From Candidatus Moraniibacteriota bacterium (GTDB lineage: Bacteria; Patescibacteriota; Minisyncoccia; Moranbacterales; UBA11712): a stretch of 12,483 nt of DNA. The position numbers were made by a program, and so were the translations under genes. Below the pieces are notes generated by a model that saw only the letters and a program-made list of their open reading frames with translations, had not been told where the DNA came from and made no database searches. Every line of letters begins with the position of its first letter. Within the stretch, counting starts at the first letter, position 1. The DNA lies in the NCBI GenBank assembly GCA_003157295.1, contig PMJF01000017.1, positions 1-12,483 of the forward strand, read 5' to 3'. This document shows positions 3,827 to 6,299 of this stretch, piece after piece.

Positions 3827-4993
3827 ATGCTGGAAATACTGCGCAAGGACGGAAAAAAGCGGGTAGGAAAACTCAAAACAGTTCACGGCACGGTCAATAC
3901 GCCGTTTTTTTTGCCTATCGCCACGAAAGGCGCCGTGAAAAATTTGAGTCCCGAGGAATTGAGAGATCTGGGCGCGGAAATAATTCTTGGAAACACCTAT
4001 CATCTTTGGCTCCGCCCGGGCCATAAATTGGTTGAAAAAGCGGGAGGCCTTCAAAGGTTTATGAATTGGGACGGGCCGGTCCTGACGGATTCGGGAGGAT
4101 ACCAAGTTTTTTCGCTAGCCGGAAATAAGATAAATCGTGGGAACACGGGGAAAATTAAGTTGAGCGAAGAGGGCGTTGAATTTTCGGATCCGATCGACGG
4201 CAAAAAAAATTTTATGACTCCGGAGAGATCAATTGAGATCCAATTGGCCCTGGGCAGCGATATCATCATGGTTCTCGACGAGTGTCCGCCGTACCCTTGC
4301 TCAAGGGAGTACGCAAAAAAATCGCTTGAAAGGACGACAAGATGGGCCGCTCGATGTTTCGGATATTTTCACAAAAAAGTAGCAAAAGATAAAAAGAAAT
4401 ATAAAAATGGCAGGCCGCTATTGTTTTGTATTATCCAAGGGTCTGTTTATAAAAATTTGAGGATAAGTTCTGCGAAACAATTATTGGGCATAGGCTTCTC
4501 CGCCCAAGGCGGACCAGCCTCGGGCTGGGACGGATACGCCATTGGCGGAGTGGCGGTCGGTGAGCCGAGGGAAAAGATGCGGGAAATTTTGGAGTGGGTT
4601 TTGCCGATGCTGCCGGAAAACAGGCCCAGATATCTTATGGGGCTGGGCCGACCGGAGGAGTTGGTTTTTGCGGTGAACCACGGGGTTGATATGTTCGATT
4701 GCGTGATCCCGACCAGAAACGCGCGGCACGCGTCGCTGTTCGTTTGGAAAGATAAGAAAAAAAATATTAAAAATAAGGTTTTCTATAAAAGCATAAACAT
4801 CACGAACGAAAAATTCAAAAAAGATTTTTCTCTGATAGACAAGGCATGTAAATGCTACACCTGCCAAAAGTATACCCGCGCCTATCTGCGCCACCTTTTT
4901 TCCGTCCGAGAGCCGCTGGCCGGAAGATTGGCAACGATCCATAATCTGAAGTTTTACCAGGATCTCATGAAGCTTCTCCAAAAAATAAATTAA
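3827..4993 (+). CDS. tgt: Queuine/preQ1 tRNA-guanine transglycosylase (with a 10-residue hairpin-encoded insertion)
   Basis: Tgt replaces guanine-34 of GUN-anticodon tRNAs (Asp, Asn, His, Tyr) with a queuosine precursor. The 388-residue protein is near the family's usual length (~375). Visible motifs are '[15 protein letters not shown]' (51-65), '[11 protein letters not shown]' with catalytic D88, the 'CIIQGS' strand (201-206), 'DGYAIGG-x-AVGEP' (235-247), 'RYLMGLG' (268-274), nucleophile D291 in '[13 protein letters not shown]', and the zinc site C341-x-C343-x2-C346 with H372. All catalytic residues are present, so the enzyme should be active. Oddity: ten residues ([10 protein letters not shown], 225-234) separate 'GF' from 'DGYAIGG', which are contiguous in the family; this stretch is encoded by a 30-bp double hairpin. 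A second small Lys-rich insertion lies near 183-194. There is no SD. The next gene starts 43 bp downstream. Confidence 0.95.
4499..4528 (+). repeat. 30-bp in-frame double-hairpin element inside tgt
   Basis: Two perfect hairpins abut with no spacer: TCCGCC-CAA-GGCGGA (4499-4513) and CCAGCC-TCG-GGCTGG (4514-4528). Every base is either in a 6-bp stem or a 3-nt loop. The element is exactly ten codons in phase with the reading frame, and removing it restores the family-standard 'GF|DGYAIGG'. The flanks pair imperfectly beyond it (8 of 12 positions). That it is an inserted element is inference from the exact match between the palindromic borders and the extra residues. Confidence 0.7.
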
Positions 4994-5036
4994 GCCAAAA
5001 GAAAGGAGAATTAGTTTTTAACCAGCTTACTTATTG

Positions 5037-6299
5037 ATGAAGAAAAAAATAGAACTTGTTTCTCCCGGAGGGAATCTTCCAAAAATTGAATATGCCTATT
5101 ATTACGGAGCGGATGCGGTTTATGTCGGGTATCCGGATTTTTCTCTTCGGGCAAGGCTCAACGATTTCAGCGAAACGAATTTGAAAAAAGCGGTGGCCTT
5201 GGCGAGAAAACGCGAAAAAAAAATTTACTTTACGCTCAACGTTTACGCCCACGAGAGGCATTTGGCTAAGATAAAAAAACATCTTTCATTTATAAAAAAA
5301 ATAAAGCCTGATGCGGTGATCGTCAGCGATCCCGGAATATTGAGTTTGGTCAAAAAGCATTCTCCGAAAACCAAGATCCATCTTTCCACCCAAGCCAACA
5401 CTACAAATTCGGAAGCCGTAAAATTCTGGCAGTCTCAGGGAGTTTCGAGAATAGTGTTGGCGCGCGAGGTGACGCTCGAAGAAATAAAAATGATCAAAAA
5501 AAAGTGTCCCAATATCGAGCTTGAATATTTTGTCCATGGGGCAATGTGCATGAGTCTCTCCGGCCGGTGCCTTCTTTCAAAATGGATGCGGGATCGAAGC
5601 GCTAATTTAGGAGATTGCGTTCAGCCTTGTCGATGGCCTTATCATGCAACACGAGAAAATAAAGAAGAAATTATTCTATCGGAAGATAAGAATGGATCAT
5701 ACTTGTTCAACTCCAAAGATCTTTGTCTGATCGAGCACCTGGATAAATTAGCCAAGGCTGGGGTGAACGCATTTAAGATAGAGGGAAGAACAAAAAGTGT
5801 TTTCTACGCGGCCTTGGCGACAAAATCCTATCGTCGGGCAATTAATGCGGTTGAAAAAGAAAAGTCCGGGAAAAAGTTGAATAAGATCGTCAAAGAAGAA
5901 AAATCCGAATTGAACAAGTTGACCAACAGGGAATACTCAACCGGGTTTTTATTTGGAAAAGATAAATGGGAGAACAATTTCGATTGTTCTCATCGGAGGA
6001 ATAGGTGGCAGTTTGTAGGAGAAATCTGCCCTGTTAAATCCCGCAAAGCGGGTGCGCCCTTGGCGCAATTTAACAGGGTAAAAGTGCATAACGCCATCAA
6101 GACCGGCGATCAACTGGAGATTATCACGCCGGAGAATATCTATGCTTCGCGGGTAGCGGAGATAAAAAACGAAAAAGCAGAATTGGTCGTGTCCGCTCAT
6201 GGAGGGAATAGAAACATTTATTTTATCGGATTATCGGGAGAGTTTCCTCGCGGGTCGCTGCTTAGAAAAAAATTATTCGAAGCCGAGGCTTGTCACTAA
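5037..6299 (+). CDS. trhP: U32 family protein, TrhP-type tRNA wobble hydroxylation protein
   Basis: TrhP-type members of the U32 family (annotated historically as collagenase-like peptidases) take part in prephenate-dependent 5-hydroxyuridine formation at tRNA position 34. The 420-residue protein starts 'KIELVSPGGN' and continues 'GADAVYVG', the N-terminal strand/turn of this TIM-barrel family. The signature region is 'EYFVHGAMCMSLSGRCLLS...GDCVQPCRWPY', with C171, C178, C194 and C198 forming the four-Cys set that binds an iron-sulfur cluster in characterised members; 'GRCLLS' and 'CRWxY' resemble TrhP more than RlhA or UbiU/V. 'AFKIEGRTKS' (245-254) is also conserved. ATG 5037 is used; TTG 5034 just before it is possible. 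A GAAAGGAG at 5001-5008 is too far away to act as its SD. Residues 332-347 are encoded by a 50-bp palindromic element. The neighbour tgt also modifies wobble position 34. Confidence 0.85.
   Translation: MKKKIELVSPGGNLPKIEYAYYYGADAVYVGYPDFSLRARLNDFSETNLKKAVALARKREKKIYFTLNVYAHERHLAKIKKHLSFIKKIKPDAVIVSDPGILSLVKKHSPKTKIHLSTQANTTNSEAVKFWQSQGVSRIVLAREVTLEEIKMIKKKCPNIELEYFVHGAMCMSLSGRCLLSKWMRDRSANLGDCVQPCRWPYHATRENKEEIILSEDKNGSYLFNSKDLCLIEHLDKLAKAGVNAFKIEGRTKSVFYAALATKSYRRAINAVEKEKSGKKLNKIVKEEKSELNKLTNREYSTGFLFGKDKWENNFDCSHRRNRWQFVGEICPVKSRKAGAPLAQFNRVKVHNAIKTGDQLEIITPENIYASRVAEIKNEKAELVVSAHGGNRNIYFIGLSGEFPRGSLLRKKLFEAEACH
6029..6078 (+). repeat. 50-bp palindromic three-way-junction element inside the U32 gene
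   Basis: Outer arms CCCTGTTAAAT (6029-6039) and ATTTAACAGGG (6068-6078) are perfectly complementary over 11 bp. They enclose two abutting hairpins: CCCGC-AAA-GCGGG (6040-6052) and TGCGCC-CTT-GGCGCA (6053-6067). Of 50 bases, 44 pair and 6 form the two 3-nt loops, with nothing unpaired at the junction. The unit from 6030 to 6077 is 48 bp (16 codons). The translated segment lies between 'FVGEI' and 'RVKVHNAIKTGDQLEI', where U32 relatives normally have a short variable turn. Its architecture matches that of the tgt element. Confidence 0.8.

Follow-up and report, generated by a model that had tools for sequence, protein, structure and literature searches.

Two probable families of in-frame, paired-hairpin mobile elements in protein-coding genes of the Moranbacterales

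Two neighbouring genes of a Candidatus Moraniibacteriota bacterium, tgt and a U32-family gene, each carry one palindromic element in frame, which raises the question of whether such elements belong to dispersed mobile families and, if so, what moves them. The window, by which we mean the whole 12,483-nucleotide stretch of DNA analysed (contig PMJF01000017.1), comes from a 1.02 Mb MAG that is 90% complete. A first-pass annotation of the letters alone had described two abutting hairpins with 3-nt loops in each element, placed in frame at tolerant sites and with no transposase nearby, and all of this was borne out: the hairpins are present (Table 1), the tgt and U32/TrhP-like frames are intact, and the sites appear to tolerate insertion. 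Folded as single-stranded DNA, the tgt element forms exactly the two hairpins (z -3.65, 0/200 shuffles as good) and the U32 element forms exactly the arms and two hairpins (z -7.42, 0/200 shuffles as good). In an AlphaFold2 model, the tgt insert lies between helix 209-220 and strand 236-239, where it lengthens the helix-strand loop, and the 10 insert residues are absent from the two PDB TGT structures with alignments shown. The top NCBIfam match of the U32 gene is NF011996 at 393 bits, with the cut-off of 534 not reached. The annotation had also called the two elements related; this holds for their architecture, but by sequence they belong to two families (A and B) rather than one. The outer arms that it had seen in one copy are a property of family B only, in which they are conserved while the hairpins vary.

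Table 1. Host genes and hairpin elements in the window.
Feature	Coordinates	Strand	Support
tgt, queuine tRNA-ribosyltransferase, 388 aa; host of element A	3827..4993	+	TIGR00430 461 bits; PF01702
Family A element, 30 nt; codes residues 225-234, flanked by GF and DG	4499..4528	+	
A hairpin 1, TCCGCC-CAA-GGCGGA	4499..4513	+	
A hairpin 2, CCAGCC-TCG-GGCTGG	4514..4528	+	
U32-family gene, TrhP-like; host of element B	5037..6299	+	PF01136 + PF16325
Family B element core, 50 nt; core and flanks code CPVKSRKAGAPLAQFNRV	6029..6078	+	
B left arm, CCCTGTTAAAT	6029..6039	+	
B hairpin 1, CCCGC-AAA-GCGGG	6040..6052	+	
B hairpin 2, TGCGCC-CTT-GGCGCA	6053..6067	+	
B right arm, ATTTAACAGGG	6068..6078	+	

Both elements are members of repeated families. 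Family A was searched as TCCGCC-nnn-GGCGGA/YCAGCC-nnn-GGCTGR, with the stems fixed save positions 16 and 30, and family B as CCCTGTTAAAT-hairpin-hairpin-ATTTAACAGGG, with the arms fixed and the interior free. Across the 128 genomes of the order, this gave 134 copies of A in 50 genomes and 53 copies of B in 25, and the reversed-pattern controls gave 0 in every genome for either family. The window's own genome has 2 copies of each. Family A measures 30 nt, B cores span 44-62 nt in this order with a variable interior, and the first A hairpin (TCCGCC) also occurs doubled with itself and alone; in 12 genomes the hairpin alone was counted at 4 to 35 places each. Beyond the order, A was found in 14 of 145 genomes sampled evenly across the phylum; on viral contigs, B was found in 1 stretch and A in 10. 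A comparison of double hairpins with shuffled sequence, which the first-pass annotation had proposed, gave a mixed outcome, as the family copies stood far above their reversed-pattern control and generic doublets only mildly above shuffles. In 237.7 kb of the window's genome (the window plus 20 stretches), a generic scan found 5 double hairpins with 3-nt loops, whereas five Markov shuffles gave 0-2. The window's elements account for two of the 5 and the second B copy of that genome for one, and doublets with 4-8 nt loops number 4-10 in the same sequence. This generic excess is weak, so structure alone is insufficient and the sequence-specific family counts are decisive. We consider it very likely that these are two real families of in-frame mobile elements, each built of paired hairpins. 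Two other candidates were set aside. In 222.7 kb of loci from relatives, hairpins with stems of 6 bp or more had a loop of 3 nt in 153 cases versus 105-164 for other loops of 0-15 nt, so there is no general excess of 3-nt loops. Rfam gave nothing near threshold, the best match of the B region being mir-1991 (23.5 bits versus a gathering score of 66, E 0.18), which we attribute to chance.

Family B also occurs well outside the order: it was found in at least 111 stretches of named genomes, from Patescibacteria and from several other phyla. Going by title, the matches listed include, beside Patescibacteria, 21 from Thermodesulfobacteriota, 21 from WOR-3 plus 1 from Stahlbacteria, 12 from Omnitrophota, 4 from 'Deltaproteobacteria', 2 each from Armatimonadota, Cloacimonadota and Bacteroidota, and 1 each from Deferribacterota and Bacillota, with some titled 'bacterium' only; no Rickettsiales record is among them. 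The two hairpins are visible by eye in copies from Patescibacteria, Omnitrophota and Desulfobacterales, but two plain hairpins are not evident by eye in those from Clostridium, Bacteroidota and WOR-3, and the interior of one Armatimonadota copy is identical to that of one from Desulfobacteraceae. Some single rows of this list may therefore be chance matches or binning errors. The WOR-3 copies (L229-L233, L248, L255 and others) have the B arms, but mostly share a common interior of about 40 nt and common outer flanks, and are perhaps a separate subfamily.

Base pairing is conserved in both families at positions that the searches left free. As the B arms were set by the search pattern, their constancy among matches proves nothing alone; the interior was free, and 47 of 52 distinct interiors from the order scored better as two abutting hairpins than each of 50 mononucleotide self-shuffles (3 scored zero). 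Covariation was assessed in all 11 of the 53 copies that have a 50-nt core, one of them degenerate, with strands hand-picked so that the 13-nt hairpin stands first. In this alignment, 98.3% of cells were paired, both sides had changed in 40 cells (3-10 with slid partners), and the covariation score was 0.453 (at most 0.086 with slid partners). Two further measures stood out less from shuffles: nine pairs showed change on both sides, with 29 of 500 shuffles as high, and 18 pair types were seen, with 48 of 500 shuffles as high. The hairpins differ even among the nine B copies of a single genome (G045). For A, positions 16/30 are C-G in 50, T-A in 35 and C-A in 2 of 87 copies. Outside the arms, B flanks are asymmetric, with TTTA on one side and TTCA on the other (8/53 paired at -2/+2 versus 19.3 expected), and the flanks are T-rich. 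We rejected this asymmetry as a marker of B polarity, as by eye hairpin order does not track the flanks.

Copies inserted in frame can be compared with empty sites in relatives, which the first-pass annotation had named as the check on mobility. Such sites were found for tgt and, in other genomes, for the B hosts topA and atpG, but no clean one was found for the B copy in the window. We compared tgt in the best 30 of 52 genomes with a match, the window's own (G000) included, and found ten additional residues between GF and DG in 9 of 30 loci. The site is exactly empty in the same-genus genome G001 and in three same-family genomes; the net insertion is 30 nt with no duplication seen, and 4-bp direct repeats at the ends occur in 1 of 87 A copies. 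One of the nine inserts (L028) is unlike the A peptide and others are decayed; the stems are perfect in the window's genome and in a tenth carrier (G100, L210), added for the tree. On a tgt tree built without the insert, its distribution needs 9 changes at one codon junction, at least 6 of them forced by well-supported branches, in a count that does not separate gains from losses. Carriers cluster no more tightly than in shuffles (391 of 500 as low); the tgt site was used recurrently. Considering the perfect stems in G000 and G100 versus decayed stems elsewhere, we infer that these two inserts are recent, separate gains.

For family B, topA and atpG each provide an empty site within one genus. 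In topA, B is present in G020 and G051 and is missing from that place in G039, G075, G076, G012, G025 and G033, with other residues there in G074; the window's genome gave no topA match. In atpG, B is present in G051, absent from the same-genus G020 and absent from 8 further aligned genomes. Among the 8, G074 carries 7 different residues at that place, and G075 was counted as neither filled nor empty in this comparison. The net gains at topA and atpG are 51 and 48 nt, which is the core plus 4, and the atpG flanks are altered beyond a clean insertion. At the window's own B site, a linker of variable length in the U32 protein, no clean empty site was found: the same-genus G001 linker is shorter and different, and in G010 this linker holds a B whose hairpins differ. 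A further genome (G017, L061) has a palindrome of CCCTC...GGGAG type at this protein linker, so the linker receives several element types.

Many of the genes that host A and B are housekeeping genes. Flanks were available for 87 of the 134 A copies and for 53 B copies, of which 28 and 26, respectively, are within open frames of 200 aa or more, an open frame not being proof of a gene. Core length is 2 mod 3 in 24 of the 26 B copies in such frames versus 10 of 27 other copies (p 3e-5), and one reading phase is used in 23 of these 26; for A, 16 of the 28 are in phase 0. In genes, B mostly codes [H/Y]PVK...FNRV and A mostly SAxGGPAxGW. Frames of at least 150 aa hold 56 A or B copies, and Pfam matches for the 19 of their proteins that were checked comprise PolA, MiaA, DnaJ, MraW, SecD/SecF, Mur ligases, glycosyltransferases, PriA, PheT, a MiaB-type/MiaA frame, ThiI, Dus, RmlD, aminotransferases and a methyltransferase; Pfam also matched AtpG and TopA as B hosts. 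The PriA locus (L103) has both A and B.

As to the mover, our preferred reading, held at a probability of roughly 0.5, is that A and B are hairpin doublets without a transposase of their own, which a single-strand Y1/RAYT-like enzyme moves in trans. The data show repeated families of tiny DNA elements, each of two abutting hairpins with mostly 3-nt loops, with conserved base pairs, in-frame insertion beside empty sites, and repeated use of one site in tgt. Copies insert precisely and have one or more frames free of stops; a frame-keeping length and a tolerant site let them persist within housekeeping genes. Beyond this, the elements would move as folded single strands, with cutting and joining done by a RAYT-type Y1/HUH enzyme, acting in trans, that recognises hairpins with short loops. 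Such an enzyme would read the conserved arms of B by sequence and the hairpins by shape. More tentatively still, the mover of B might read shape and not hairpin sequence, recognising a three-way junction with fixed arms and free hairpins; B would then cross distant phyla and place its peptides in essential proteins, and some protein sites would repeatedly receive several kinds of hairpin element.

The main ground for a RAYT-like mechanism is that, in the genus to which the window belongs, a RAYT-linked hairpin of the same build is found in frame within genes. Y1 transposase matches occur in 71 of 128 genomes of the order; of 59 Y1 loci analysed, 46 have a RAYT-like ORF by motif. Locus-specific hairpins of at least 7 bp near these RAYTs number 93 with 3-nt loops versus 10 with 4-nt loops, odd larger loops recounting the same hairpins. 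The hairpin of one RAYT, ACTTGGAAAC-nnn-GTTTCCAAGT, is dispersed in the same-genus G001 (22 places) and the same-family G006 (17 places) at up to 2 mismatches, 3 of the places in each genome being at the RAYT itself (L406, L410, L422-L441). It lies mostly inside open frames: 27 of 33 distinct hairpins (27 loci, both genomes) are in frames of at least 150 aa, including 2 in a RAYT frame and 2 that are halves of one topA doublet. That doublet, in G001, sits at about the B position of G020 and G051. Going by sequence pattern, PheT, DnaX and MiaA presumably also carry this hairpin in G001/G006. RAYT genes (L370, L357, L449 and others) often have their own 3-nt-loop hairpin before the start, in the CDS and just after the stop; 23 of 46 have a copy of the locus hairpin within the coding sequence, mostly at about +170 to +208 nt and in some at about +450. 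REP copies within RAYT genes are known from subclass 2.4, as described in excerpts of PMC6006769.

Other observations count against a RAYT. Neither an exact A hairpin nor a B arm was found on either strand at the 59 loci analysed, a subset of those in the order that carry hairpins of other sequence, and the window's genome has 0 Y1_Tnp matches in its 90% complete MAG. Y1 presence shows no association with A (30/50 genomes with A versus 41/78 without, p 0.47) and a weak one with B (19/25 versus 52/103, p 0.025, kinship ignored). The foot sequence is missing as well: only 9 of 87 copies of A and 3 of 53 of B have a GTAG/GTGG/CGTC/TGTC tag within 6 nt of either end. In addition, the inverted arms of B, about 15 bp long (TTYACCCTGTTAAAT), would also suit a TIR transposase. 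B (perhaps A) would then be a MITE-type element moved as double strands by an enzyme reading the outer arms, with the inner hairpins as passengers, and the net insertion of core plus 4 fits a 4-bp duplication, as do the 4-bp direct repeats (TCAA, TTGA or TAAA) at the ends of 6 of 53 B copies, five of these in G045. However, the most frequent flank pairs, TTCA/TAAA and TTTA/TGAA (12/53 each), are not direct repeats, A has no arms, and a search of the analysed loci by arm pairs alone, to a spacing of 3.5 kb, pointed to no autonomous copy. Passenger hairpins would need no pairing conservation, yet pairing is conserved. We therefore regard a MITE-type origin as somewhat unlikely.

Movement might also need no dedicated enzyme, if replication slippage and template switching created and spread the palindromes and kept hairpin arms complementary. 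Template switching is a known way to perfect imperfect palindromes, and the nine B copies of G045 differ in their hairpins, yet most interiors stay paired. Against this, exact B arms recur in many lineages, where about 0.5 chance matches would be expected in that collection at equal base use, and 50 of 128 genomes share the 22 letters that are fixed in A; these shared sequences make slippage alone insufficient, and we judge it very improbable. Nor do we give much credence to ancient, immobile insertions that protein function has preserved, in tgt at least, where a peptide S..GGP..GW would be selected. Several decayed tgt inserts do retain this peptide pattern despite codon changes, but the changes forced on the tree, the lack of clustering, the empty site in G001 and the perfect stems of G000 and G100 all argue otherwise. 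An attC/Xer identity for B was rejected on box order, which is opposite to that of attC; the arms GTTAAAT/ATTTAAC have what we take to be a resemblance to integron R boxes and a dif arm.

Returning to the RAYT-like reading, the first-pass annotation had named REP/RAYT systems and Rickettsia palindromic elements (RPEs) as the closest concepts, and we agree. Excerpts of PMC3733652 and PMC6006769 describe REPs with stems of 5-13 bp, loops of 2-3 in many families, common dimers and a mover thought to be Y1 in trans. A and B resemble REP/RAYT systems (REP dimers are BIME or REPIN, RAYT is TnpAREP) in having short hairpins, doublets and several dispersed copies per genome. They differ in that neither has a GTAG/CGTC foot or a matching RAYT that we could find, and B combines conserved outer arms with hairpins of free sequence and is spread over several phyla. 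The annotation had noted that REPs are mainly intergenic, but the parallel is closer than this suggests: excerpts of PMC3733652 report REPs and REP dimers inside genes of other bacteria, some in frame, and one RAYT-matched hairpin is often intragenic in this order. RPEs, according to excerpts of PMC10969869, PMC3767692 and PMC2229807, are in-frame palindromic insertions in unrelated protein genes with an unknown mover. A and B are likewise palindromic and in frame in protein genes, but, judged by taxa and lengths, RPEs are distinct, being about 100-150 bp with a family sequence and found in Rickettsia/Wolbachia, whereas A and B are shorter. MITEs, as excerpted from PMC2229807, are non-autonomous, have terminal inverted repeats and are both intergenic and intragenic; only B, with its terminal inverted arms, is similar, and it differs in having no clear target duplication or autonomous partner seen and an interior of two free-sequence hairpins. 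Among titles and abstract beginnings, we found no literature on in-frame palindromes in Patescibacteria, and by title no match to the B arm strings concerned mobile elements; one such match, in an excerpt of PMC3177234, is a primer and an upstream region.

Most unusual are the fixed arms, free hairpins and multi-phylum spread of B. With these elements, the range of protein-coding palindromes, which are known best from Rickettsia, is extended to Patescibacteria and, in the case of B, to further phyla; the elements also supply reduced genomes with new protein loops. Links to a mover become testable: the order provides matched pairs of a RAYT and an intragenic hairpin, as well as a double hairpin whose sequence is free and whose arms are fixed, which turns the question of the mover into a biochemical test. 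The window's genome also contains 8-bp stems with 4-nt loops (L071 937-980, L074 4269, L077 8184), two of them with CCA after the stem, which look like the CGTC-type REPs described in excerpts of PMC3733652.
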